Assembly: GCA_017792345.1 (NCBI GenBank)
Contig: CP051228.1
Span: 4,370,148 to 4,434,147 of the forward strand
Length of the DNA: 64,000 nt
Source: Mesoflavibacter sp.
GTDB taxonomy: Bacteria > Pseudomonadota > Alphaproteobacteria > UBA8366 > Aestuariispiraceae
Direction: 5' to 3'
Positions 7,957 to 54,587 of the stretch are shown piece after piece. The position numbers and the translations under genes are program-made. Each line of letters starts with the position of its first letter. Within the stretch, counting starts at the first letter, position 1. A model generated the notes under the pieces. The model did no database searches. It was not told the DNA's origin and worked only from the letters and a program-made list of their open reading frames with translations.

Positions 7957-8964
7957 ATGAGCACCCTTCCCGTCCTTTCGATTTCCGATCTGATTGTCGA
8001 GTTCCCCACGCGGCGAGGCGTTCTTCGGCCGGTCGACCGCGTCGGTTTTGACATCGCCCGCGGCGAAATTCTGGGTGTCGTCGGAGAATCCGGCGCCGGT
8101 AAGTCCATGTGCGGATCGGCCATTGTCGGCCTGATCGACCGCCCCGGCAGGATCACCGGTGGCGAAATCCGTCTTTCCGGCGAACGTATCGACACCCTGT
8201 CGCAAGAAAAGATGCGCCGCATCCGCGGCAAGCGGATCGGCATGGTCTTTCAGGATCCTCTGACCAGCCTCAACCCGTTGATGCGGGTCGGCGATCAGAT
8301 CGTCGAGACGATCCGAACCCACCTGCCGGTTTCAGAACATGAAGCCCGACGCCGCGCCGTCGCCGCCCTGGAGGAAGTCGGCATTCCCGCCGCCTCCACC
8401 CGCATCGACAGCTATCCCCACCAGTTTTCCGGCGGCATGCGTCAGCGTGTCGTCATCGCCCTCGCCCTGGCGGCCGAACCGGAACTGATCATCGCGGACG
8501 AACCGACAACGGCCTTGGATGTGTCGGTTCAGGCCCAAATCATGGCCCTGTTGAAGCGTCTTTGCCGGGATCGGGGTACGGCGGTCATGCTGATCACACA
8601 CGATATGGGCGTCATCGCCGAATCGACGGACCGCGTGGCCGTGCTCTACGCCGGACGCCTTGCCGAAATCGGTCCGACGCGCGACGTACTGAGCAGCCCT
8701 CGCCATCCCTATACAATCGGCCTCATGGCCTCCACGCCATCGCCGACCGGCGGGGCGGATCGGCTGAGCCAGATTCCTGGTGCCATGCCGAACTTGCGCG
8801 CCATTCCGCCTGGCTGCGCGTTCAATCCACGGTGCACGAAGGCATTCGGCCCCTGCACGTCCGAACTGCCTGTCCTGAAACCCGTCGGGCGGAACGAGGT
8901 CGCCTGCTGGCTGTTCGACGACGCACTGACGGGTAATCCCAACAAGGCGGAGGAAAACGCATGA
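7957..8964 (+). CDS. ABC transporter ATP-binding protein (DppD-type)
   Basis: Cytoplasmic ATPase energising the importer, 335 residues. Walker A GESGAGKS (near residue 45), the Q-loop at VFQDPLTSLNP, the signature FSGGMRQR, Walker B LIIADEPTTALD and the switch His in LITHDMG are all intact. The C-terminal oligopeptide-transporter extension (GCAFNPRC near 285) is present with its cysteines. The start is either ATG 7957 or the in-frame GTG at 7948 that overlaps the permease stop (GTGA). The gene overlaps the next ATPase by 4 bases. Confidence 0.92.
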   Translation: MSTLPVLSISDLIVEFPTRRGVLRPVDRVGFDIARGEILGVVGESGAGKSMCGSAIVGLIDRPGRITGGEIRLSGERIDTLSQEKMRRIRGKRIGMVFQDPLTSLNPLMRVGDQIVETIRTHLPVSEHEARRRAVAALEEVGIPAASTRIDSYPHQFSGGMRQRVVIALALAAEPELIIADEPTTALDVSVQAQIMALLKRLCRDRGTAVMLITHDMGVIAESTDRVAVLYAGRLAEIGPTRDVLSSPRHPYTIGLMASTPSPTGGADRLSQIPGAMPNLRAIPPGCAFNPRCTKAFGPCTSELPVLKPVGRNEVACWLFDDALTGNPNKAEENA

Positions 8965-9974
8965 GCGAGCAAACCCCGCTGATCCGCGCCGAAAACCTGA
9001 CCTGCGTTTTCGATGTCTCCAAACCTTGGCTGAACCGGGTGATCGAGCGACGCGAACGACAGTTCCTGACGGCGGCACGGAACGTCACGTTCGACATTCC
9101 CAAAGGCAAGACCTTTGCCTTGGTGGGAGAGAGCGGTTCCGGCAAGTCGACCATCGGCAAGATGGCCGTCGGTCTGCTGCGCCCGACCTCCGGCAAGGTC
9201 ACCGTCGACGGAACAGACCTGTTCGGCGCCCTGAAAGCCTCATCGGCGAGCGCCCTGCGCCGGCGTATCCAGATGATCTTCCAAAGCCCCTATGCCAGCC
9301 TGAATCCGCGTTGGCGGGTCGGCGACATCATCGCCGAGCCGATTCGGGCCTTCGGTCTGGCGTCGGGAGACGCAGTCGGCGCACGGGTGACGGAGCTTCT
9401 GGAGCAGGTCGGCCTGGCGGAGAATGACGGTCAGAAGTATCCCCACGAATTCTCCGGCGGCCAAAGACAGCGTATCGCAATCGCCCGCGCGCTGGCCTCA
9501 AACCCCGAATTCATCGTCTGCGACGAACCGACCTCGGCGCTCGACGTGTCGGTACAGAGCCAGGTTCTGAACCTGATGAAGGATCTGCAGCGTGATCTGG
9601 GGCTGACCTATCTGTTCATCAGCCACGATCTGTCCGTCGTCCGCTATATGGCCGACCAGATCGGCGTGCTCTATCTCGGTCAGTTGGTGGAAACCGCCAA
9701 TAGGGAAGATCTGTTCAACAATCCGCAGCATCCCTATACTCGGATGCTGATGGACGCGGCGCCGCGCATCGACGCGTTCGGACGTACGGCGGATGCGGTG
9801 AAGGGCGAAATCCCGGATCCGATTACGCCGCCGCCGGGTTGTCCCTTCCACCCCCGGTGTCCGTTGGTCGACAATCGCTGCAAGACGGAAGTGCCGAAGC
9901 CCTTCCAGACGGGCGAGACGAATGTCGCCTGCCACGCCGCGGAAGAAGGACGCGGACGACCGGAGGCCGCCTGA
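8961..9974 (+). CDS. ABC transporter ATP-binding protein (DppF-type)
   Basis: Second ATPase of the importer, 337 residues. It has Walker A GESGSGKS, signature FSGGQRQR, Walker B FIVCDEPTSALD and switch His in LFISHDLS. The C-terminal extension contains GCPFHPRCPLVDNRC. Relative to DppD it has the extra N-terminal stretch around the LTCVFDVSKPWLNR region often seen in DppF proteins. It is the last gene of the five-gene operon; its stop lies 16 bases from the stop of the convergent CULT gene and no terminator is visible between them. Confidence 0.92.
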   Translation: MSEQTPLIRAENLTCVFDVSKPWLNRVIERRERQFLTAARNVTFDIPKGKTFALVGESGSGKSTIGKMAVGLLRPTSGKVTVDGTDLFGALKASSASALRRRIQMIFQSPYASLNPRWRVGDIIAEPIRAFGLASGDAVGARVTELLEQVGLAENDGQKYPHEFSGGQRQRIAIARALASNPEFIVCDEPTSALDVSVQSQVLNLMKDLQRDLGLTYLFISHDLSVVRYMADQIGVLYLGQLVETANREDLFNNPQHPYTRMLMDAAPRIDAFGRTADAVKGEIPDPITPPPGCPFHPRCPLVDNRCKTEVPKPFQTGETNVACHAAEEGRGRPEAA

Positions 9975-9990: not shown

Positions 9991-10365
9991 CTAACCTGGC
10001 TTCCGTCCACTTAGGGCCGAACGGATCAGGCCGTAGAACCGGTCTGCGCTGCCCTGAAGGTCATAGCGCCACCCGATATGCCGACCGCAGGCACCGCAAA
10101 CCGCGACACGCCATTGATATCCCGGGAACCAGGTGAAATCGCCCCGCCCGGCCCAGGGTGAGAGCAATCCCCAGGCCTCGCCGAAACAGCGGATGGTGAA
10201 AACCTGACCCATCGGATTGAAGACCGTATGTTCGTGGCTGTCGCGCCGCACGACCGCAAGGCTTTCCCGCGTTACCGACGCTCCGCAGCCTGCGCAGAAC
10301 AATTGGTCGTCTTCCGTCCGTTCGACGTCGGAATCCGGCTTGCCCGCAGTTAACTCGTCCAGCAT
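9991..10365 (-). CDS. Single-domain CULT protein (bacterial cereblon homologue)
   Basis: A 124-residue protein that is essentially one CULT domain, the fold that forms the thalidomide-binding part of human cereblon. It resembles the Magnetospirillum protein known as MsCI4. The structural zinc site is present (C24, C27, C90, C93). The ligand cage is complete: W79, W85 and W99 with Y101, and the N50-P51 pair in VFNPMG that hydrogen-bonds cyclic imides in known structures. The cellular role of bacterial CULT proteins is not established; binding of a cyclic imide or uracil-like metabolite is inference. ATG 10365 follows AAGGGG; a longer in-frame reading upstream is antisense to the SDR and is rejected. 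It is divergent from the SDR, with 37 bases between starts. Confidence 0.88.
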   Translation of the reverse strand: MLDELTAGKPDSDVERTEDDQLFCAGCGASVTRESLAVVRRDSHEHTVFNPMGQVFTIRCFGEAWGLLSPWAGRGDFTWFPGYQWRVAVCGACGRHIGWRYDLQGSADRFYGLIRSALSGRKPG

Positions 10366-10402
10366 CGTGGCCCCTTCATCCGCCGTTTGAAGGAGGGTAG
10401 CC

Positions 10403-11164
10403 GTGCAGCGTTTCTCTGGCAAAAGGGCCGTCGTCACCGCCGCCGGTGCCGGGATCGCCCGGCATATCGCCGAACGGCTTCTGGCCGAGGGTGCCGCGGT
10501 CTTCGCGGGAGATGTCGATGCCGCCGCTCTTGCGAGCCTGCCGGACGCCATGGGCCGGGACAGCGTCGATGTCGGGAATCCGAATTCGGTGGATCGCTTC
10601 TTCGACCGGGCTCTCGACGAATTGGGCGGGATCGATCTGCTGATCAACGCGGCGGGAACCAAGGGGCCGACCGGGCCAATCGAAGACACCGATCCGGCTG
10701 CCTGGCAGGCCTGTGTCACCGTGAATCTGACGGGCGCCTATCATTGCCTGCGGCGTGCCCTGGGACCAATGAAGCGTCAGGGAAGCGGCGCCATCGTCAA
10801 CTTCTCCTCCACCGGCGGTCTCTACGGATATCCGGAACGCTCGCCCTATTGCGCGGCGAAATGGGGCATCATCGGCCTGACAAAGACAGCCGCGGCGGAG
10901 GCCGGGCCGTTTGGCGTGCGGGTGAATGCCTTGTGCCCCGGTTCCGTCGAAGGCGACCGGATGGACCGCGTCATCGCTGCCGATGCCGCCAGCACCGGCC
11001 GCAGCGAGGCGGAAATCCGCGCGGACTATGTCAAGGACACCAGCATGCGCTGCTTCGTGACGGCGGATGACGTGGCGGAAGCCGCGCTGTTTCTCTGTTC
11101 CGACGCGGGGCGCCGCATATCGGGCCAGGCCCTGCCGGTCGACGGCCACACAAGCATGTTGTGA
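10403..11164 (+). CDS. SDR family oxidoreductase
   Basis: Classical short-chain dehydrogenase of 253 residues, cytosolic and probably NAD(H)-dependent. The GTG start at 10403 has GGAGGG upstream. The catalytic set is present: NAAG near residue 82, Ser in NFSSTGG near 131, and YCAAK near 146-150. The nucleotide-binding glycine motif is unusual: TAAGAGIA in place of TGxxxGIG, so the first and last glycines are Ala. An acidic residue after strand 2 (GDVDAAA) suggests NAD rather than NADP. The C-terminus (SGQALPVDGHTSML) is typical. The substrate is unknown; the very short divergent spacing to the CULT gene suggests co-regulation. Confidence 0.85.
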   Translation: MQRFSGKRAVVTAAGAGIARHIAERLLAEGAAVFAGDVDAAALASLPDAMGRDSVDVGNPNSVDRFFDRALDELGGIDLLINAAGTKGPTGPIEDTDPAAWQACVTVNLTGAYHCLRRALGPMKRQGSGAIVNFSSTGGLYGYPERSPYCAAKWGIIGLTKTAAAEAGPFGVRVNALCPGSVEGDRMDRVIAADAASTGRSEAEIRADYVKDTSMRCFVTADDVAEAALFLCSDAGRRISGQALPVDGHTSML

Positions 11165-11185: not shown

Positions 11186-11929
11186 TCAAATGAACGGCGT
11201 TTCGGCGACCTGCTGTTTTGCAACGGCAATCGCGTCCTCCAGGGATACTGCATTCTGGAACAGGGCCCTGCCGATGATGGCGCCCGAAATGCGCGGCAGG
11301 TGCTTCAGGACCGCGACATCGTCCAACCGGCGCACCGTGCCGGAGGAAATGACGTCGATCTCCAGCTCCTTCGCCAGTTGCGTCGTATGGGCGAAACTGG
11401 CTTCCGGCAGATCGATATCCATGTCGATATCGGTATAGATGATCGCGGCGGCACCGATATTCTGAAATTCCCGGGCCAGTTCCAGGGGCGAGAACATGGT
11501 TTTCTCACGCCAGCCCTCGATCACCACCTTGCCTTCATAGGCATCGATGCTGACCAGCACCTTGCCCGGCCAATGGGAGCAGGCTTCCCGCACGAAAGTC
11601 CGGTCCTTCACAGCCGCCGTCCCCAGAACGATGCGGTCCGCGCCTGCCTTGAACCACCATTCCGCCGCCGCCATGGTCCGGATCCCGCCGCCGACCTGAC
11701 AGGGAATATCGACCGATTTCATGATCTCGGTGATGACTTCGCCATTGTGCTCACCGCCCTGCAGTATGCCGTCGATGTCGACCAGATGCAGCCATTCCGC
11801 ACCCTTGGCGACATAGGATTTGGCCGCCGCGAGGGGCGCCACCGCGAACTCCTCAACCTCCGTGACATTGCCACGGATCAGGTTAACGCATTTACCGCCT
11901 TTAACTTGAATCGTCGGATAGATGATCAT
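11186..11929 (-). CDS. HisA-like TIM-barrel protein with a substituted catalytic Asp
   Basis: A 247-residue (beta/alpha)8 protein clearly related to HisA, the ProFAR isomerase of histidine synthesis. The half-barrel repeats and phosphate loops are recognisable (GGGIRTMAAAEWWFKAGADRIVLG; SSGTVRRLDD). Key differences are visible. Position 8, the catalytic general base Asp in HisA (AIDL), is Gln (TIQV). The loop usually reading TDIxRDG is TDIDMDID at 166-173. The other catalytic Asp, D129 in SIDAYEGK, is kept. No his gene is nearby; the genome's real hisA probably lies elsewhere. It is therefore likely a paralogue with another reaction or none. ATG 11929 follows GGGAG. It lies 136 bases downstream of the carnitine operon on the same strand. 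Confidence 0.78.
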   Translation of the reverse strand: MIIYPTIQVKGGKCVNLIRGNVTEVEEFAVAPLAAAKSYVAKGAEWLHLVDIDGILQGGEHNGEVITEIMKSVDIPCQVGGGIRTMAAAEWWFKAGADRIVLGTAAVKDRTFVREACSHWPGKVLVSIDAYEGKVVIEGWREKTMFSPLELAREFQNIGAAAIIYTDIDMDIDLPEASFAHTTQLAKELEIDVISSGTVRRLDDVAVLKHLPRISGAIIGRALFQNAVSLEDAIAVAKQQVAETPFI

Positions 11930-12065
11930 GGCGCGCTCCCGAATCTGTCGCTCCCGCCTCCGTCTTTCGGGCGGGTATTGCAGACAGTCTATCACGAAGG
12001 CATGCGTCGATCCTATGGGCACGAATCGGCCCGAACCCACGAAGTGCTCGGATGTGGCTGGACCT

Positions 12066-12851
12066 TTAGCGGCCTTTCCAGACAGGTTTGCGCTTTTCCG
12101 CGAAAGCGCGCGCACCTTCCAGCTGATCTTCCGAATGGTAGAGCTTCTGGATCGTCGGCAGCTTTTCGCCATTCAACATGTCAATCGCATCCTGGAACCG
12201 CTTGTTTTCCGTCTCGCGCAGCGTTTCCTTGATCGCAGCAAAGACAAGCGGGGGGCCGTCGGCCAAAAGTGCGGCCGTCTCGCGGGCGCTTTGCATCAAG
12301 GTGTCGGCCGGCACGATCCGGTTCACGAAGCCCCAGCGCGCGGCCTCCTCGGCATCCACCCGGCGGCCAGTGAACAGCATTTCCATGGCGATGTGATAGG
12401 GAATGCGGCGCGGCAGCTTGATCGTCGCGGCGTCCGCGATGACGCCCGAATTGATTTCCGGCAGGGCGAAGGTCGCGTGTTCGGCCGCGATGATGATGTC
12501 GCAGGACAGCATGATCTCGAACCCGCCGCCGAAAGCGATGCCGTTGACCGCCGCGATGATCGGCTTGTTCAAGCCGGGCAGTTCCTGAAGCCCGCCAAAT
12601 CCGCCGACGCCATAATCGGAATTGGCCTGTTCCCCACCGGCCGCCGCCTTCAGGTCCCAGCCGGGACAGAAGAATTTGTCGCCCGCACCGGTCAGAATGG
12701 CACATCGCAATTCGGGATCGTCCCGGAAATCGGCGAAGATGTCGCCCATGATCCGGCTGGTTGCTGCGTCGATGGCATTCGCCTTCGGCCGGTCGATGGT
12801 CACTTCCAGAACACGGCCGTTGCGCACCGTCTTGATGGGGGTATCGGTCAT
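12066..12851 (-). CDS. CaiD-like crotonobetainyl-CoA hydratase (carnitinyl-CoA dehydratase)
   Basis: Crotonase-family protein of 261 residues that best fits CaiD, which interconverts crotonobetainyl-CoA and carnitinyl-CoA. Evidence is the C-terminal HSEDQLEGARAFAEKRKPVW region, almost the CaiD tail, and the RRIPYHIAMEMLFTGRR segment. Both catalytic glutamates are present (E112 in GGFEIML and E132 in FALPEINSG). The start ATG 12851 follows AAGGGAG; an apparent N-terminal extension upstream is antisense to the synthetase gene. It is the last gene of the five-gene carnitine-type operon, 23 bases after the synthetase. Role by context: hydration step on the way from gamma-butyrobetaine to L-carnitine. 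Confidence 0.85.
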   Translation of the reverse strand: MTDTPIKTVRNGRVLEVTIDRPKANAIDAATSRIMGDIFADFRDDPELRCAILTGAGDKFFCPGWDLKAAAGGEQANSDYGVGGFGGLQELPGLNKPIIAAVNGIAFGGGFEIMLSCDIIIAAEHATFALPEINSGVIADAATIKLPRRIPYHIAMEMLFTGRRVDAEEAARWGFVNRIVPADTLMQSARETAALLADGPPLVFAAIKETLRETENKRFQDAIDMLNGEKLPTIQKLYHSEDQLEGARAFAEKRKPVWKGR

Positions 12852-12874
12852 GGCGCTCCCTTTCCAATCTATGC

Positions 12875-14935
12875 TTATTCTGTCCAGCGTATCAGCGCGT
12901 CGGCCGCGACGACGCCCCGGCCCTGCGGCAGGACGATCAACGGATTGATGTCCAACTCCTCCAGGCGGTCGATATGCGCTTCCACGAAGCGGGCGACCGC
13001 CAGAACGGCCTCGATCAGCGCCTGCCGGTCCCCGGCGGGCTTGCCGCGATACCCGGCGATCAATTTTCCGACCGCCAGACGATCCAGCACCCGCGCGACA
13101 TCCGTTTCCAGGACCGGGAACATGAGGACCGCCGCGTCCTTCAGAAGTTCCGCCAGAATGCCGCCGGCCCCGATCATCAGCATCGGTCCGACCTGCTCGT
13201 CGCGGGTAACGCCGACAATGACTTCGCAAACCCCGTCGCGGGCCATGCTTTCGACGATAAAACGCTCGGACAGGGATGCCATATGGTCGACGGCAGTGGC
13301 GACCGCATCGGCATCTGCAAGATTCAAGGCGACGCCCCCCGCCTCCGTCTTATGCGCCAACTCGGCGGCGCAGGCTTTGACCACGACCGGATAGCCGATG
13401 GCCTCCGCCGCCGCGACGGCTTCGCTGGCACTGGACACCAGGGAACCCTGCGGCAATGCCAAGCCAAAGGTCTGCAGGGCCTTCTTCGAGCGCCACTCGT
13501 CCAGAACGACCGACCGGCCTTGCGCCGCGAGTCCGAAGCCTAGAGGCGGGCTTACGTCCAATGCCCGGCCGCGTGCCTCGCCATACCAAGCGGCCCGGTC
13601 GACGGCTTTCAGCGCGTCGTCAAACCCCTGTAGAGGCACAACACCGGCGGCCAGGAACCGTTCGCTCAACGCGACGGGCATGTTTTCCGGCAGGCTGGAC
13701 GCCACAGCGGTAGGACGGCCGGTTTCCTTGGCGGCCGCGATGATGGCGTCCATTGCCTCCGGCCAGCCGAACAGATCCAGCCCGGCGCGGTCCGGCGTAT
13801 CGAGCGCCAGGATCCCCGCATCGACATCCTGCCTCAGTGCCTCGGTGAAGCAGGCCGTCATGGCCGGGCCGTTGCCCCAGATATAGGTATGATAATCCAA
13901 CGGGTTATCGATGGTGACCTTATCGCCCAGCACATCCAGCAAGGCGTCCGCCCTATCCTTGGCGAAAGGCGGCATCGGCAGACCGATTTTCTCCGCCAGA
14001 TCCGCCAGAATCCCCGCTTCGCCACCGGAACAGCTCATGGTGAGGATGCGGCGACCGTCCAGTCCTGGATGCACATGCACGAATTTCAGGATTTCGAGGA
14101 ATTGCGGCAAGGTTTCGGCCCGGATCACCGCCAGCCGGTCGCACAGCGCGTTGAAACCGGCCGACGAGCCGGTCATGGAACTGGTATGGGACAGGGCGAC
14201 CCGCGCGGCGGCGGCGGAATCGCCGGTCTTCAACACGACGATCGGCACCCCCTGTTTCGCGGCCTGCAGCGCAGCCTCACAGAAACCGGGAATATCGCCG
14301 ACGCTTTCGATGAACAGGCCGATGGCGGTCACCCGGTCGTCGCGCAGAAGGGAGCGCATAACCGACGGCACCCCGTCCTTCGCCTGGTTCCCAAGGGCGG
14401 CGAGCTGCGCCACCGGCAGGCCGCGTTCCTGCATCGACAGGCTGATCGCGACATTGCCGCTCTGGCTGATCAGGGCGACACCGCGTTCGATCCGCTTGCC
14501 GCCATGATCGTCCGGCCATAGCGCGACGCCGTCCAGATAATTGACAGCGCCGTAACAGTTCGGGCCCAGCATGCCCATATCGCCCGCGGCGGCGAGAAGG
14601 CGTTTCTGCCGGTCCAAGCCCAGCGCCCCGGTCTCCGCGAAGCCGCTGGCATAAATGACGACACCGCCCGCCCCCATCGCGGACAATTGTCCAACCGCTT
14701 CTATGGTCGGCTCCGCCGGGATCGCCAGGAAAACGGCATCCGGCGGTTCCGGCAGATCGGCGATCGATCCCAGGCTGGGCACGCCGGCCATGGTGGGACG
14801 CGAACGGCTGATCGGATAGATCGGCCCGTCGAACCCGACCTTCTTGCACTCCAGAACGACCTTCTCCGCCTCCCGGCCGCCGATCGCGGCGACGCTGCGC
14901 GGGCGCAGCAGGCGGTCCAACCCGACTGCGGTCAT
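12875..14935 (-). CDS. ADP-forming acyl-CoA synthetase (acetate--CoA ligase family), fused alpha-beta
   Basis: A 686-residue fusion of the CoA-binding/ligase part (residues 1-450) and an ATP-grasp part (from about 470). It is expected to make an acyl-CoA with ATP giving ADP and phosphate. The CoA-binding start (LLRPRSVAAIGG), the CoA-ligase loop (GMLGPNCYGA near 122-130) and the phospho-histidine H250 in ALSHTSSMTG are visible. The ATP-grasp section has GYPVVVKACAAELAHKTEAGGV. By context it may activate gamma-butyrobetaine, crotonobetaine or carnitine, replacing the AMP-forming CaiC/BcoA type; this is inference. ATG 14935 lies 4 bases past the upstream stop, indicating tight coupling. Confidence 0.85.
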   Translation of the reverse strand: MTAVGLDRLLRPRSVAAIGGREAEKVVLECKKVGFDGPIYPISRSRPTMAGVPSLGSIADLPEPPDAVFLAIPAEPTIEAVGQLSAMGAGGVVIYASGFAETGALGLDRQKRLLAAAGDMGMLGPNCYGAVNYLDGVALWPDDHGGKRIERGVALISQSGNVAISLSMQERGLPVAQLAALGNQAKDGVPSVMRSLLRDDRVTAIGLFIESVGDIPGFCEAALQAAKQGVPIVVLKTGDSAAAARVALSHTSSMTGSSAGFNALCDRLAVIRAETLPQFLEILKFVHVHPGLDGRRILTMSCSGGEAGILADLAEKIGLPMPPFAKDRADALLDVLGDKVTIDNPLDYHTYIWGNGPAMTACFTEALRQDVDAGILALDTPDRAGLDLFGWPEAMDAIIAAAKETGRPTAVASSLPENMPVALSERFLAAGVVPLQGFDDALKAVDRAAWYGEARGRALDVSPPLGFGLAAQGRSVVLDEWRSKKALQTFGLALPQGSLVSSASEAVAAAEAIGYPVVVKACAAELAHKTEAGGVALNLADADAVATAVDHMASLSERFIVESMARDGVCEVIVGVTRDEQVGPMLMIGAGGILAELLKDAAVLMFPVLETDVARVLDRLAVGKLIAGYRGKPAGDRQALIEAVLAVARFVEAHIDRLEELDINPLIVLPQGRGVVAADALIRWTE

Positions 14936-14939
14936 GACG

Positions 14940-16100
14940 TCACCCGCCCAACGGACGCAACAGCGAACGGGAAATGATGTGACGCTGGATTTCGCTGGTC
15001 CCTTCCCAGATGCGTTCGATCCGCGCATCGCGCCAGATCCGTTCCAGCGGCAATTCGGACATCACGCCCATCCCGCCATGGATCTGGATCGCCTCATCGG
15101 CTATATAGGCCAGGGCTTCCGTCGCCGACAGTTTCGACATGGCGGCGTCCATATCGGACATCGTTCCATTGTCGTATTTCCAGGCGGCTTCATAGGTCAG
15201 CAGTTCCGCCGCTTTCAGCTTGGTCTGCATATCGGCCAGCTTGAACGACACGCCCTGGAACTTGGAAATCTTCTGCCCGAACTGTTCGCGGTTCACCGCC
15301 CAGTCCAAGGACAGTTCCATTGCTCGGTCACAGCGGCCGAGGCAGAGCGACGCGACTTGCAGCCGGGTTGCGCCCAGCCAGTCGTTGGCGACATCGAAAC
15401 CTTTATCCACCTCGCCCAGCACCGCCGTTTCGGGCACCCGGCAGTCGTCGAACTCCAGGATGAAATTGTGATAGCCGCGATGGGAGACGTTGCTGTAGCC
15501 AGGACGCACCGTCAGGCCGGGCGTGTCCTTGTCCACCAGGAAGGTCGTGATCTTCTTGCGCTTGCCGCGGGCGCTGTCCTCTTCGCCCGTCGCGGCCATC
15601 AGAATGATGAAATCGGCCCAATCGACATGGCTGATGAAGTGCTTCACGCCGTTGATGACGAAATCGCCGCCATCGCGCTTCGCGAAGGTCTTCATGCCGC
15701 GCACATCCGACCCGGCACCCGGTTCGGTCATGGCGAAGCAATCCACCCGCTCGCCCCGGCAGGCGGGATAGAGATACTGTTCGCGCTGATCGCCAACACA
15801 GGCCTGCAGCACGTTCGACGGGCGATAGACGATGTAGTTCAGCGCCATGCTCGCCCGGCCAAGCGCACGGTCCAGCATGCACATGGACAACGTGTCCAGC
15901 CCGCCGCCGCCGACCTCTTCCGGCATGTTGGCGGCGTAGAGACCGAGTTCCAGCGACTTGCGCTTGATCTGCTCGCCCAGTTCTCGACTGACCTTGTCGG
16001 ACTTTTCGACCTCTTCCTCGTAGGGATAGAGCTCTTCCTCAACGAAGCGGAGCGCCGTTTCGACGATCAGCTTCTGCTCTTCGGTGATACTGAAATCCAT
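14940..16100 (-). CDS. Acyl-CoA dehydrogenase, candidate gamma-butyrobetainyl-CoA dehydrogenase
   Basis: FAD-dependent acyl-CoA dehydrogenase of 386 residues. The helical N-terminal domain is followed by the FAD/substrate signature CFAMTEPGAGSDVRG near residue 123. The C-terminal domain has QIHGGMGVMSE and the catalytic base E366 in RIWEGTSE. YEAAWKYDNGTMSDMDAAM resembles the corresponding stretch of CaiA. In this operon it probably makes the crotonobetainyl-type double bond from gamma-butyrobetainyl-CoA, passing electrons to ETF. The start follows GGGGAAG. It begins 10 bases after the carnitine dehydrogenase stop. Confidence 0.87.
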   Translation of the reverse strand: MDFSITEEQKLIVETALRFVEEELYPYEEEVEKSDKVSRELGEQIKRKSLELGLYAANMPEEVGGGGLDTLSMCMLDRALGRASMALNYIVYRPSNVLQACVGDQREQYLYPACRGERVDCFAMTEPGAGSDVRGMKTFAKRDGGDFVINGVKHFISHVDWADFIILMAATGEEDSARGKRKKITTFLVDKDTPGLTVRPGYSNVSHRGYHNFILEFDDCRVPETAVLGEVDKGFDVANDWLGATRLQVASLCLGRCDRAMELSLDWAVNREQFGQKISKFQGVSFKLADMQTKLKAAELLTYEAAWKYDNGTMSDMDAAMSKLSATEALAYIADEAIQIHGGMGVMSELPLERIWRDARIERIWEGTSEIQRHIISRSLLRPLGG

Positions 16101-16110
16101 GCTTCCCCGC

Positions 16111-17085
16111 CTATTGGTTCTTTTCCCGCAGGCGCAGCAGCACTTCGCCCGCGCCTTCCCGGTATTTCGACAAGGCCTCCATGATCTCGATCAGGCAATT
16201 GTCACGCAGCTGTTCCATCTGAGGGATGGTGATATCGGCCAATTGCTCCTCGGTACCTTTCACGACCGTGTCGATCAGCTCCTCGGTCAGTTCCGGCGCT
16301 TCCAGCTTGGTCCAGGGCAGTTTCAGCGCCGGGCCGAACTGTTCCATGAAATGGCGCATGCCCTGATCGCCGCCGGCCAGCGCGAAAGTCCGGTTCACGC
16401 CCATGAAGGCCCAGCGCAGACCGGGCCCATAGACCACGACATCGTCCATTTCCTTGGTCGTCGCGTGTCCCTCGGCCAGCATATGCAGGTTCTCGCGCCA
16501 CAGCGCTTCCTGCAGGCGGTCGGACAGGAATCCTTCGACCTCCGTGCGGCACTGGACCGGGTACATGCCGATCTTCTCGTAGAACGCGCCGGCGCGGGTC
16601 CGCGACTCCTGAGCTGTCTTCTTGCCCCCGACGATCTCGACCAGCGGCAACAGATAGACCGGGTTGAACGGATGGCCGACCAGGACGCGTTCCGGGTGCT
16701 TGCATTCCGCCTGGAAATCGCTGGGCAGCAGGCCGGATGTCGAAGAACAGATCAGCACGTCCGGCGCAGCCGCCGCGTCGATCTGCGAATGAATGCGGAT
16801 CTTGAGATCCAGCCGCTCCGGCACGGATTCCTGAACCAGGTCCGATGCGGCGGCGACTTCCTCAATCGAGGATGCCATGCGCAGGCGATCCTGAGACGCG
16901 TCCGGATGCAGGCCTATGCGCGACAGGGCCGGCCAGGCATTGGCCACCTTGCCGCGCAGGATCGCCTCGCCATTGGGCGCCGGATCATAGGCAATGACAT
17001 CCAGCCCGTTCGCCAGACAGCGCGCCGCCCAGCCACCACCGATCACCCCGCCGCCAACCAGGCCGACAGTCTTCACTTCCGACAT
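16111..17085 (-). CDS. cdhA: L-carnitine dehydrogenase (3-hydroxyacyl-CoA dehydrogenase family)
   Basis: NAD-dependent oxidation of L-carnitine to 3-dehydrocarnitine, 324 residues. The Rossmann motif GLVGGGVIGGGWAAR lies at 8-22. The catalytic His-Glu pair of this superfamily is H138 and E150 in VGHPFNPVYLLPLVE. The stretches RLQEALWRENLHMLAEG and YGPGLRWAFMG, and PALKLPWTKLEAPELTEELID, are what I know as hallmarks of carnitine dehydrogenases rather than fatty-acid enzymes. The start has GAGGAG upstream. It lies next to a CdhC-type cleavage enzyme and a divergent CdhR-type regulator, the same trio as in Pseudomonas carnitine catabolism. Confidence 0.9.
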   Translation of the reverse strand: MSEVKTVGLVGGGVIGGGWAARCLANGLDVIAYDPAPNGEAILRGKVANAWPALSRIGLHPDASQDRLRMASSIEEVAAASDLVQESVPERLDLKIRIHSQIDAAAAPDVLICSSTSGLLPSDFQAECKHPERVLVGHPFNPVYLLPLVEIVGGKKTAQESRTRAGAFYEKIGMYPVQCRTEVEGFLSDRLQEALWRENLHMLAEGHATTKEMDDVVVYGPGLRWAFMGVNRTFALAGGDQGMRHFMEQFGPALKLPWTKLEAPELTEELIDTVVKGTEEQLADITIPQMEQLRDNCLIEIMEALSKYREGAGEVLLRLREKNQ

Positions 17086-17098
17086 TCGTCGATGCTCC

Positions 17099-17989
17099 TC
17101 AGACCAGCTTTTTCAGCGCGAATTTCTGACGCGCCTCTTCCGGCGTGCAGACCCGGGCGCCCATCAGTTCGATAATCTGCCGGGCACGCGCCACCAGTTG
17201 CGCGTTGGTCGCGAAGACGCCGCGATCCAGATACAGGTTGTCTTCCAAACCCACGCGGACATTTCCGCCCAGCAGGACAGCCTGTGCGACCATCGGCATC
17301 TGCATGCGGCTGATCCCGAAACCGGACCAGTTGGCGTTGGCCGGCATCATATCCGCCATGGCCTTCATTGCGGTCGTATTGGCTTCCGCGCCATAGGGAA
17401 TGCCAAGACAGAGCTGGAACAGCGGCGGGTCGCTCAACAGGCCCTCGGCATGAAGCTGCTTGGCAAGCCACAGGTGACCGGTGTCGAAGACCTCGACTTC
17501 CGGCTTCACGCCGATATCCTGGATGCCCTTGGCCAGGGCGCGCAGCATCGGCGGCGTGTTGGTCATGATGTAATTGCCATTGCCGAAATTCATCGTGCCG
17601 CAATCCAGCGTGCAGATTTCCGGCAGGCATTCGCGGACATGATCCAGCCGCTCGGACCAGGGCGCCATGTCGGTTTCCGCCTGGCTGATCGCCATCGGAT
17701 CTTCGGGCGGGCCCAGCGTCAGGTCGCCGCCCATACCGGCGGTCAGGTTCAGGACGACATCGACGCCGCTGTCGCGCACGCGGTCGCAAACTTCCTTGAA
17801 TTTCTTCGGATCGCGGCAGGGCGTTCCGTCGTCTTCACGGACATGGAGATGGACGATGGCCGCGCCGGCCTTGGCCGCTTCGACCGCGCTCTCCGCGATC
17901 TGGGCCGGGGTCTTCGGCAGGTCCGGGTGCTTGTCCTGGGTCGCACCGGAACCGGTGACCGCGCAGGTGATGACGACGTCTGTGTTCAT
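17099..17989 (-). CDS. cdhC: 3-dehydrocarnitine cleavage enzyme, BKACE (DUF849) family
   Basis: Zinc-dependent beta-keto acid cleavage enzyme, 296 residues. The family reaction is a retro-Claisen cleavage using acetyl-CoA. For dehydrocarnitine it gives betainyl-CoA and acetoacetate. Seen in sequence: the start strand [13 protein letters not shown], the zinc ligands in [12 protein letters not shown] (near residue 45), [12 protein letters not shown], and the C-terminal metal-site region [15 protein letters not shown] 17989 has GGAGG 10 bases upstream; the longer frame from 18040 is not supported. First gene of the catabolic operon, reading away from the regulator. No betainyl-CoA thioesterase (CdhB) gene follows. 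Confidence 0.88.
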
Positions 17990-18030
17990 GGCTGGATAAC
18001 CTCCCGCGTTTGGGTTTTGCCGGATGGTAA

Positions 18031-18041
18031 ATTGCAGCAAT
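18031..18041. promoter_or_regulatory. Candidate operator palindrome between cdhC and the regulator
   Basis: ATTGCAGCAAT is a perfect 11-base palindrome centred in the 110-base gap between two divergent starts. A further ATTGC half-site is at 18089-18093 near the regulator start. A GATase/AraC-type regulator could bind here; this is inference with no footprint data. Confidence 0.35.
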
Positions 18042-18099
18042 GGCCACGCTTTCCATTTTCCGACTTGAGCATGATGGAATCCGTCTTTATTGCTGAGGC

Positions 18100-19068
18100 A
18101 TGTTTCACCGTCCCGCCTCCGAAAGTACCGAGCGTATCGGCTTTCTGCTCCTCCCCGGATTTTCGATGCTCGCCTTCTCGGCGATGATCGATCCGCTGCG
18201 CATGGCGAACTGGCTGTCCGGCAAGCCGCTCTATGAATGGGTTCTATTGTCCCGCGACGGGGCAGCGGTTCCCGCAGCCAACGGGATCAGCGTCGCCGTC
18301 GACCATTCGCTCGGCTCCGCCCAACGATTGCCGACCCTGGTCGTCGCGGCAAGTTATGATCACGAAGATCTGGCGACGTCCGACGTCTTGGCTGTCCTGC
18401 GTCGCTGGTCCAGTTTCGGTTCCGCCATCGGGGCCCTGGACAATGGGACCTTCGTTCTTGCCAGCGCCGGCCTGCTGGACGGCTACCGCGCCACGGCGCA
18501 TTGGGAGATGCTGGAAAGCTATATCGAGAGCTTCCCCAGGGTGACATTCAGCCAGGATCTCTTCGTCGTCGACCGGGACCGGTTCACGGCCGCGGGCGGC
18601 ACGTCCGGTCTGGATATGATGCTGAGCCTGCTGCGGCTTCGGCACGGCGACGAACTGGCGAACAAGGCGGCCGACGAGTTCGTCTATTCCCGTATTCGCG
18701 ACCCGGGCGATTCCCAGCGCCTCAAATTGCGGGAACGCCTGCGCGGCATCAATCCGCGCCTGACCCGCGCCGTGGAGGCCATGGAAGCCAATCTGGAGGA
18801 AAGCGTCCGGACTGAGGCCTTCGCGGAAGCGGCCGGCGTTTCGCCTCGGGAACTGGAGCGTCAGTTCAAGAAATGGCTGAAAACCACCCCCGGTGCCTAT
18901 TACCGCGGGCTGCGCCTGGACCGGGCGCGGCAGTTGCTGCGCCAGACGGACCTTACAATCATCGACATCGCCTTCCGCTGCGGCTTCGGATCCGCCGCCC
19001 ATTTCACCCGCAGCTTCTCCAGCCGGTTCGGACAGCCACCCAGCGCCGAACGGCGGCCCCGCCCCTGA
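18100..19068 (+). CDS. cdhR: GATase1/AraC-type transcriptional regulator, CdhR-like
   Basis: A 322-residue regulator of the GlxA/CdhR type. Residues 8-180 form a DJ-1/PfpI (class I glutamine amidotransferase-like) sensor domain starting [17 protein letters not shown]. Residues 215-315 carry two AraC helix-turn-helix motifs ([19 protein letters not shown] and [20 protein letters not shown]). In Pseudomonas, CdhR activates carnitine genes in response to carnitine. Here it is divergent from the cleavage-enzyme gene, so the same role is likely. The start ATG at 18100 has only a poorly spaced GAGG before it, so the true start is slightly uncertain. Confidence 0.85.
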
Positions 19069-29281: not shown

Positions 29282-29935
29282 TTAAAAAACGAAAGCCGCA
29301 GCTTTCTGGAATCCCGGTAGGGATTTGACGGTCGCGTCGAATAGCGTCCGCGGCGTCGTCACCCCGTTACGTTTACCGTACAGCGTCGCCCGGCCGATCC
29401 CGTTCGGCGCGTTCACGATTGCCATTAACCGTCCACCCTCGTTCAACTGGTCGATCAGACCTTCCGGCACCTCATCGACCGCACCGCCCAGGATGATGAC
29501 GTCAAAAGGTCCTTCCTTGGGATAGCCCTGCTTGAGGGGTCCTTCCACGGCGACGACATTGTCCAAGGCCAACTCAGTCAGCGCCGCCCCCATTTCCGCC
29601 ACCAGCCCAGCATCGCTTTCCAGCGCAAAGACCGACCGGCACAGGCGGCCCAGAATGGCGGCGGAATAGCCCATGCCCGCGCCGACGACCAACGCATTGT
29701 CCTCTGCCTGCGGCATGGCATCGTGGATCAGGCGCGCCATCGGCATCGGCGGCATGATCCACCGGTCCTTGGCAATCTGGACATGTTCGTCGACATAGGC
29801 TTGGGCCCGTCGCGACGGCGGCAGAAAGCGTTCCCGCGGGATGCTGTGCAGCGCGTCGAGCACGGCCGGCGCGATGACCTTGTTCGTCCGCAGTTGAGAC
29901 TCCACCATATTCCGGCGTGCGAGGGCGAAATCCAT
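29282..29935 (-). CDS. Protein-L-isoaspartate O-methyltransferase-like protein
   Basis: A 217-residue PIMT-family Rossmann methyltransferase-like protein. The family N-terminus (ARRNMVESQLRTNKV, then IPRERFLPP) and ALVVGAGMGYSAAILG are visible. Compared with the true pcm product also in this window (VLEVGTGSGYQAAVLS), SAM motif I is altered. The acidic residue is Val, and Thr and Ser are replaced by Ala and Met. Activity on isoaspartyl proteins is therefore uncertain. This paralogue lies directly upstream of tolC in many alphaproteobacteria. ATG 29935 matches the family start; the longer frame upstream is not supported. Confidence 0.82.
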   Translation of the reverse strand: MDFALARRNMVESQLRTNKVIAPAVLDALHSIPRERFLPPSRRAQAYVDEHVQIAKDRWIMPPMPMARLIHDAMPQAEDNALVVGAGMGYSAAILGRLCRSVFALESDAGLVAEMGAALTELALDNVVAVEGPLKQGYPKEGPFDVIILGGAVDEVPEGLIDQLNEGGRLMAIVNAPNGIGRATLYGKRNGVTTPRTLFDATVKSLPGFQKAAAFVF

Positions 29936-30043
29936 GTTCCTGACCCGTCCTGATACTATGTTGCTAGGCCCTTGCTTTATATGTTCCCGCGTCATTCTTG
30001 GCAACGCGCGAAGGAGGGGCAAACCATGTCGCCGATAGCTTTC

Positions 30044-52737: not shown

Positions 52738-53901
52738 TCAACTGGTCAGCAGCAGCCGGCGCGGATCGATGGCATCCCTTCCCCGGCGGATCTGGAAATG
52801 CACCTGCGGCGTCTCGACCGTACCGCTGGACCCGACGCGGGCGATCGCCTGACCGCGTTGAATGACCTGCCCCCGGCTGACCAGCAGCGCGTCGGCATGG
52901 GCATAGGCGGTGACATAGCCGTCGGCATGCTTGATCAGGACGATGTTGCCGAAACCTTGCAGCCCGTCACCGGCGTAGGCGACGACGCCGGCTTCGGCAG
53001 CGCGGATCGGGCTTCCGCGTGGCGCGGCAATATTGATGCCGTCATTATGCAGGCCCCGACCTTTCGGACCGTAGGCCGATACGACATTCCCCCGGACCGG
53101 CCACAGGAAACCATTGCCCGTCATCGGCGGCGGGCGCGGGATTGGCCCCACAAGACGCGGCGGTTCATAGGGTTTGGCTGGCGGATAGATCACATCGCTC
53201 GGTCCGAATGACGGTTCCGGGGGCGGCTGCGACGGCAGTTGCGACGGGGCAGGTTCCGGCGAGGCCTCCAGGACCGGAACATCCTCTCCTGACGAAGCCG
53301 GCGGCGGAGACTCCGGCAAAAGCTCGACCGACGGCGCGACGGCCGACGGTTCCGGATTGCCCGGGGCGTTGGGGATCGGTTCCGGCCGAGGCGGCGGTGC
53401 GGCGGGATCGGTCGAGACATAGGTAGCCCGCGGCACGGTGGACGACGGCACGCTCAACCGCTGTCCGACCTTGATGGTATAGGGCGGCGCCATTTGATTG
53501 ACGCGCACCAATTCATTCATCGCGACGCCGTATTGCCGGGATATGCCGTAAACCGTCTCGCCGGTCCGAACCGTATGGGTCCGGGCCGCGGGGATGCGCA
53601 ATTGCTGACCGACCCGCAAATCGTAGGGTGGCCGAAGCGCATTCTCCACGATCAGCGCGCGGAGCGGCACACCATACCCCCGAGAAATGGCGTATAGCGT
53701 CTCACCGCGCCGGACGGTGTGGATATTGCCTTGGGTCGGGGCGACCGGGGCGCTGCTGGAACTGCCGACGGATTGCGACGTCCCCTGACCGCCGCTCTTA
53801 ACACTGGAACTGTCGAACAGGCGTATCTGCGGTCCCGACCCGCCACCGCCGCAGGCGGCCAGCAGTGCCGCGGTCAGGACCAGGACCGCGACCTTAGTCA
53901 C
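52738..53901 (-). CDS. LysM / M23 (LytM-like) lipoprotein, NlpD/DipM-type
   Basis: An envelope lipoprotein of 387 residues that probably activates cell-separation amidases. GTG 53901 gives a lipoprotein signal with lipobox LLAAC. Two LysM domains follow (HTVRRGETLYAISRGYGV and HTVRTGETVYGISRQYGV), then a Pro/Glu-rich linker and a C-terminal M23 domain. The zinc site is degenerate: the first HxxxD pattern reads NDGIN, and the final HxH is QVH, while H in YAHADAL remains. It is therefore likely a non-catalytic activator like DipM, EnvC or NlpD. It overlaps the pcm stop by 8 bases (GTGACTAA), so it is co-translated with pcm. Confidence 0.88.
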   Translation of the reverse strand: MTKVAVLVLTAALLAACGGGGSGPQIRLFDSSSVKSGGQGTSQSVGSSSSAPVAPTQGNIHTVRRGETLYAISRGYGVPLRALIVENALRPPYDLRVGQQLRIPAARTHTVRTGETVYGISRQYGVAMNELVRVNQMAPPYTIKVGQRLSVPSSTVPRATYVSTDPAAPPPRPEPIPNAPGNPEPSAVAPSVELLPESPPPASSGEDVPVLEASPEPAPSQLPSQPPPEPSFGPSDVIYPPAKPYEPPRLVGPIPRPPPMTGNGFLWPVRGNVVSAYGPKGRGLHNDGINIAAPRGSPIRAAEAGVVAYAGDGLQGFGNIVLIKHADGYVTAYAHADALLVSRGQVIQRGQAIARVGSSGTVETPQVHFQIRRGRDAIDPRRLLLTS

Positions 53902-54538
53902 GGTCGGCCTCCACCCCCGGCAATAGCGGAACGAAACGCACGTCGCCCATCTCCTCCAATTCCAAGCCGCCCTCGGTCTTCGTTCCGCAGAGCAGTACTT
54001 GCGGCAGATCGTGATCCCCGACCGGCACGACGATGCGACCGCCGACGGCCAGTTGGTCGACCAGAACCGGCGGCACATCCATTGCGGCGGCCGTCACGAT
54101 GATCCGGTCGAACGGCGCTTGCTCCAGCCAGCCCGTTGCGCCGTCTCCATATTTGGTGACGATATTGTGCAAATCGAGGTGCCGGAACAGCGACTCCGCC
54201 TCACGCAACAGCGGTTTATGGCGTTCGACGGTATAAACGCGGCGGCTCAACCGGCTGAGGACGGCGGCCTGATAGCCGGAGCCGGTGCCGACTTCCAGCA
54301 CCTTGCAGCGCCGATCCAGTTTGAGCGCTTCGGTCATCAGCGCGACAACGAAAGGCTGACTGATCGTCTGCCCCCGCCCGATCGGCAGCGCGGAATCGTC
54401 ATAGGCGTGGCGGCGGAAGGTTTCCGGCACGAAGAGCTCGCGCGGCGTCTGTTCCAGAGCGGTCAAAACCGCCTGGTCCAGAATGCCGTTACGGCGCAGC
54501 GTCAGAATCAGCCGAGCCCGCTCGGACTGAAGATCCAT
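53894..54538 (-). CDS. pcm: Protein-L-isoaspartate O-methyltransferase
   Basis: SAM-dependent repair enzyme that methylates isoaspartyl residues in damaged proteins. It has about 215 residues. The PIMT N-terminus (VLTALEQTPRELFVPE), the substrate loop ALPIGRGQTISQPFVVA and SAM motif I VLEVGTGSGYQAAVL are intact. Later motifs include FDRIIVTAAAMDVP and GGRIVVPVG. The start could be ATG 54538 or the in-frame GTGs at 54547 and 54553; GGGA lies 7 bases before 54547. It is between surE and the M23 lipoprotein gene, the usual alphaproteobacterial order. Confidence 0.93.
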   Translation of the reverse strand: MDLQSERARLILTLRRNGILDQAVLTALEQTPRELFVPETFRRHAYDDSALPIGRGQTISQPFVVALMTEALKLDRRCKVLEVGTGSGYQAAVLSRLSRRVYTVERHKPLLREAESLFRHLDLHNIVTKYGDGATGWLEQAPFDRIIVTAAAMDVPPVLVDQLAVGGRIVVPVGDHDLPQVLLCGTKTEGGLELEEMGDVRFVPLLPGVEADRD

Positions 54539-54587
54539 CGCGATCACGGTCACGTCCCGTGGTTGGGGTCCCTCATCGACCCCCGGT

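Follow-up and report, generated by a model that had tools for sequence, protein, structure and literature searches.

The 64,000 nucleotides of contig CP051228.1 analysed here (assembly GCA_017792345.1, Mesoflavibacter sp., a marine member of the Alphaproteobacteria; this whole stretch is the window, and its genome is G000) carry on the minus strand, at 10365..9991, a gene for a single-domain CULT (cereblon-type) protein of 124 residues, standing between an ABC transporter gene and a short-chain dehydrogenase/reductase (SDR) gene. Called from its open reading frame (ORF), phmmer matches, codon score and selection ratio omega, it is a further member of a known family, the fold and pocket of which have been described since 2014-2015 (PMC4287342). 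The ORF runs from an ATG at 10365 to a stop at 9991..9993, and upstream of that ATG the same frame stays open to a GTG at 10719. Because the codon-usage score is positive from 10365 (+7.0) and negative for the upstream extension (-16.8), and because the copy of the related genome G012, 79% identical, starts at an ATG matching 10365, we retain this start, which is that of an earlier sequence-only reading of the window, where the strand was not given. Presence in all six genomes searched from the genus and purifying selection, with omega between 0.03 and 0.15, show that the gene is real: pairwise omega is 0.15 between the window and G012 (at a dS of 1.21, near saturation), 0.03 between G010 and G009, and 0.05 between G010 and G011. 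The protein has no Pfam or NCBIfam match at E<=0.001, so that annotation drawn from those libraries may miss such genes.

Searched with phmmer against the sequences of the PDB, the protein matches MsCI4 (MGR_0879, 'cereblon isoform 4' of Magnetospirillum gryphiswaldense; PDB 4v2y and others) with an E value of 1.2e-25, well outside what chance would give, residues 23-119 lying on residues 23-119, 97 residues without a gap, at 41% identity. All 46 distinct PDB sequences that match at E<=0.001 are named cereblon, and the eukaryotic cereblons match at E 7.4e-11 to 2e-9. MsCI4 is likewise a single CULT domain of near-equal length, and its cage residues, its NPxG motif and its zinc cysteines fall in register with those of the window protein. 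A single-domain CULT protein with an intact tri-tryptophan cage is what the sequence-only reading had announced; the gapless match bears this out, and the residue numbers then proposed (W79, W85, W99, Y101, N50-P51 and the four zinc cysteines) are all correct. On the minus strand, the first zinc knuckle, C24-A-G-C27, is encoded at 10285..10296; N50-P51, at the tip of the hairpin that holds the NPxG motif named for the CULT domain (PMC4449219) and present here as N50 P51 M52 G53, at 10213..10218; W79 to W85, a stretch that begins and ends with a cage tryptophan, at 10111..10131; the second zinc knuckle, C90-G-A-C93, at 10087..10098; and W99-R-Y101, the third cage tryptophan with the base of the cage, at 10063..10071. 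Cage roles are assigned after MsCI4, in which Trp79, Trp85 and Trp99 make the pocket, Glu76 and Pro51 stand at its rim, and the ligand is hydrogen-bonded by the backbone of Phe77 (F77 here) and of Trp79, with an extra bond from Tyr101 (PMC8900816). The earlier statement that every pocket residue is kept is thus accurate for the residues it named and too broad for the rim, where Glu76 and Ala52 of MsCI4, which comes from another host, are replaced by D76 and M52.

These residues are also those that the family does not change. In an alignment of 29 bacterial CULT domains (28 loci and MsCI4, with 31-77% identity to the window protein), N50, P51, W79, W85, W99 and the four cysteines are invariant, F77 is kept in 28 of 29 rows, position 101 is a tyrosine in 10 and a phenylalanine in 19, and Y83 is variable; the remaining 89 columns have a mean conservation of 0.53, with 5 of them invariant. 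The CULT ORFs of the loci were picked with a C..C/W/W/C..C pattern, so that the selection presupposed two of the tryptophans, W79 and W85, and all but one of the zinc cysteines, whereas N50, P51 and W99 played no part in it; the final pattern, loosened to admit locus L057, passed 27 of 27 loci and dropped none. An intact imide-type pocket is well supported by this pattern of conservation. The gapless homology to a solved structure also suggests a beta-tent fold; an AlphaFold model built on a two-sequence alignment had a mean pLDDT of 40.6.

The CULT domain of eukaryotic cereblon (CRBN) is homologous to the window protein and displays the same three tryptophans (Trp380, Trp386 and Trp400 in the human protein), while human CRBN has a phenylalanine where the window protein and MsCI4 have Tyr101 (PMC8900816). 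CRBN further contains a LON domain and a DDB1-binding region, both of which the window protein, with 124 residues in all and no Pfam match, is without: the N-terminal LON domain and DDB1-binding region that mark a cereblon E3 substrate receptor are missing. Other bacterial members, as presented in PMC4287342, consist like this one of the CULT domain only and differ in host lineage, their hosts being mainly delta-proteobacteria, with a few alpha- and gamma-proteobacteria and one spirochete.

Where are such genes found? Our genome profile searches, in which a carrier was called at E<=1e-6, covered Pseudomonadota, and most bacterial CULT members belong, according to PMC4287342, to delta-proteobacteria, outside the genomes profiled. 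G000, a single contig of 4,907,657 bases, has one match. Within the order, 7 of 43 genomes are carriers, namely the six of the genus and G038. A draw from the class gave at least 4 of 385 (three of the genus and G168), and a draw from the phylum at least 21 of 398, all of which but G000 fall in one class; with at most 11 candidates scored per genome in these two draws, their counts are lower bounds. In the CULT-rich class itself, 20 of 48 genomes carry the gene, and a new search with all candidates scored returned the same 20. All 48 have magnetochrome-domain matches over cut-off and the class would be the Magnetococcia; it is called here the magnetotactic class. The words 'magnetotactic' and 'Magnetococc' do not occur in PMC4287342. 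With the 48 genomes as positive control, no magnetochrome match was found in the eight alphaproteobacterial carriers, and CULT presence varies inside the magnetotactic class, so that it looks like a matter of lineage, not of linkage; a connection between CULT and the magnetosome was rejected on both counts. Searches of plasmids and phages (tblastn, query P0001) and of IMG/VR viral contigs (alignment search) retrieved no CULT relative. A single-sequence scan of genome contigs yielded one CULT locus, in Pacificispira spongiicola, and G001, a candidate at E 0.001 with 36% identity over 45 residues, was dropped as it was not confirmed by the profile at the threshold above.

What could the pocket hold? 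MsCI4 binds thalidomide and uridine in vitro with low micromolar affinity, and a part of its domain unfolds when the ligand leaves (PMC4449219). The view that a bacterial ligand is not established must accordingly be divided: it is contradicted for binding in vitro and stands for the physiological ligand. As judged from the listed titles and abstract openings on the subject, a physiological role for bacterial CULT has not been announced. By analogy with MsCI4, the window protein very probably binds zinc, takes up uridine and glutarimide-type rings, and folds upon binding. It may be imagined from there that CULT is a pyrimidine sensor, binding uracil or uridine and reporting, or buffering, the status of pyrimidines or of uracil in DNA. 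MsCI4 does bind uracil as well as uridine and is stabilised by the latter, and its authors raised the possibility that uracil is a physiological ligand (PMC4287342, PMC4449219); for uridine they found no biological context (PMC4449219). Against this role, no pyrimidine-metabolism family came out over its cut-off among the CULT neighbours scanned, which are a part of the total, and we consider it rather unlikely.

The genes on either side of CULT suggest another family of scenarios. The SDR gene (10403..11164, plus strand, 253 residues; Pfam adh_short_C2 at 1.4e-50) opens with a GTG at 10403, hence 37 bases from the ATG of CULT, as the sequence-only reading had it, and in this divergent gap (10366..10402) each of the two genes has, by eye, a likely ribosome-binding site. 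That reading proposed that CULT and its neighbours belong to the metabolism of a cyclic imide, a hydantoin or a dihydrouracil-type compound, in which case CULT would hold or sense the substrate or the product of the SDR. The pairing that it suggested looking for across genomes is indeed found in the genus: the SDR gene adjoins CULT in all six genomes, the other five copies being 72-87% identical to that of the window (the G011 copy is cut by a contig end), and the divergent pair holds together across two gene settings, while CULT itself has diverged to about 50% identity. In G000, G012 and G013 the other side of CULT is occupied by a peptide ABC operon, with HisA-like and acyl-CoA genes beyond the SDR; in G009, G010 and G011 an AAA ATPase gene takes its place (by Pfam for G010, of MoxR type by eye), with GatC/GatA-like genes, by eye, beyond the SDR in G009 and G010. 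A gene of the Amidohydro_3 family, which includes hydantoinase-like enzymes, lies two genes from the SDR in G012, between the HisA-like and enoyl-CoA-hydratase genes (L062 8100-9545, minus strand), and it speaks in favour of the proposed metabolism; a tblastn search of the window and of the 26 remaining CULT loci did not find it, so that a single one of the six genus loci has it. Outside the genus the SDR was found in none of 22 CULT loci; 9 of these have a flank that a contig end cuts to under 5.5 kb, so that missing neighbours there prove little. Order-mates without CULT possess SDRs up to 58% identical, in G008 following another set of genes. The SDR was consequently rejected as a general partner of CULT. 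It remains below the curated NCBIfam cut-off of every family among the best 25 of 222 matched, and an alignment of the gap across five genus members displayed no obvious conserved or shared regulatory element. Taken together, this makes a local SDR pathway quite improbable as the role of CULT.

The convergent peptide-type ABC gene is where it had been placed. This oligopeptide/dipeptide-type transporter ATPase gene (8961..9974, plus strand), the last of a run that begins at about 4150, ends at 9974, 16 bases from CULT. It adjoins CULT in three of the six genus genomes, and the three others have the CULT-SDR pair without an adjoining peptide ABC operon, which argues against the operon as its setting. 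In G009, G010 and G011 (loci L059, L060, L061) the flank of CULT that holds the AAA ATPase gene also has a run of genes resembling, by eye, those for phosphonate use (C-P lyase), together with a gene for a GntR-type regulator. Beyond the SDR of the window, the HisA-like gene at 11186-12172 (minus strand) scores 219.4 bits against a HisA cut-off of 228.95, is also found close to the CULT-SDR pair of G012 and of G013, and has no his gene among its scanned neighbours. No scanned neighbour in the window fits imide, hydantoin or dihydrouracil metabolism, and the right flank, from 12066 to 19068, is likely a carnitine catabolic cluster: it includes an L-carnitine dehydrogenase at 16111-17085 (447 bits, over its cut-off of 414), near which GbdR-like, BKACE-type, crotonobetainyl-CoA-hydratase-like and acyl-CoA genes were detected, all below their cut-offs. 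That the aromatic cage should sense quaternary ammonium compounds such as carnitine or gamma-butyrobetaine for this cluster, betaine and choline sites being typically aromatic cages (PMC4449219), is very improbable indeed: three of the six genomes of the genus have different genes next to the CULT-SDR pair, the conservation of an imide-type pocket speaks for a neutral imide, and the binding of quaternary-ammonium groups to cereblon in vitro was inconclusive (PMC4449219).

Farther away the surroundings of CULT, examined with a home-made gene caller in which the CULT ORF was forced, keep changing. The neighbours vary from one family of the magnetotactic class to another, and DnaE-like, CpdA-like and other genes stand, by eye, beside CULT elsewhere. 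A rhodanese gene lies directly downstream of CULT in 6 of the 20 loci of this class, spread over three families (L039, L041, L043, L048, L049, L053); these six genes are on the same strand and start at most about 35 bases past the end of CULT or overlap it, that of L041 being recognised as Rhodanese by Pfam. Rhodanese was nevertheless rejected as a partner, a relative being present in 42 of the 48 genomes, with or without CULT. In one family (f200; loci L044, L051, L052) CULT follows Bat-type aerotolerance genes, identified by eye and, for BatD in L044, by Pfam. Among the neighbours seen, none is common to all CULT loci, and because no neighbour is kept across them we favour a ligand of general significance over one that would belong to a local pathway. 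The genus-wide CULT-SDR pair, the prevalence of CULT in the magnetotactic class and the fact that no partner is constant over the loci seen may constitute new context for the family.

We can therefore consider a function that would need no fixed neighbour. In eukaryotes, cyclic imides at the C-terminus of proteins act as cereblon degrons, and human protein-L-isoaspartate methyltransferase (PIMT, the product of PCMT1) can make such imides (PMC13001092, which cites Ichikawa 2022, Heim 2022 and Zhao 2025). The gene of the window would make a soluble, zinc-pinned single-domain CULT protein working like MsCI4, whose partly flexible pocket would close round a flat imide or uracil-type ring, the three tryptophans clamping the ring and the backbone of residues 77 and 79 hydrogen-bonding it. 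Its job might then be to read the C-terminal cyclic imides of proteins and peptides that have been damaged or cleaved, as eukaryotic cereblon does, minus ubiquitin, for example by sequestering imide-bearing ends or by handing them over; the SDR would be a genus-level neighbour, not a required partner. As a whole, an MsCI4-like imide-binding reader comes close to an even chance while staying below it, and the C-terminal role taken by itself, proposed by analogy, must be held somewhat more tentatively still.

The organisms considered here are supplied with PIMT. Family members are present in 48 of the 48 genomes of the magnetotactic class, in slightly larger numbers in CULT carriers (mean 2.65, n=20) than in the others (1.96, n=28; Mann-Whitney p 0.025). 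Among the 30 genomes at least 90% complete the means are 3.07 in carriers and 2.2 in the others (p 0.009). A one-sided comparison within families gives a p of 0.047 over all genomes and of 0.053 in those at least 90% complete. The window has a PIMT gene of its own at 53894-54553 (minus strand; 266 bits, over its cut-off of 188), which adjoins a surE-like gene, and a more distant member of the family at 29282-30022 (minus strand; 120.5 bits, below cut-off).

Several considerations weigh against an imide reader. Ligand binding by the window protein itself is extrapolated from MsCI4, and the geometry of its cage is taken from the alignment only. The association between PIMT and CULT is only a hint, since it comes from one post-hoc test in which kinship is not fully corrected, and is borderline within families; furthermore the 28 genomes of the magnetotactic class devoid of CULT all have PIMT-family matches too. 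No protease, chaperone or repair gene is consistently found beside CULT in the part of the neighbours that was scanned, and a presence as patchy as 20 of 48 genomes, or at least 4 of 385, argues against an essential housekeeping role. With these points included, we still place the reader of C-terminal cyclic imides first among the possible roles, ahead of the pyrimidine sensor, then of the partner of the SDR, and last of the sensor of quaternary ammonium compounds.

If this ordering is right, one might ask whether ubiquitin-free readers of C-terminal cyclic imides, whether these arise from damage or from PIMT, exist among bacterial single-domain CULT proteins at large, so that the recognition of imides for quality control would predate the ubiquitin system; such a generalisation is, for the time being, doubtful. 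The pocket that accommodates thalidomide-type drugs is kept in 29 of 29 aligned bacterial CULT proteins, in organisms without a cereblon ubiquitin ligase, and knowing its bacterial cargo would tell what this pocket evolved for. To this end a small protein suited to testing is available from the genus, in a genome where two PIMT-family genes lie nearby, and the magnetotactic class provides, for comparison, relatives with and without CULT.
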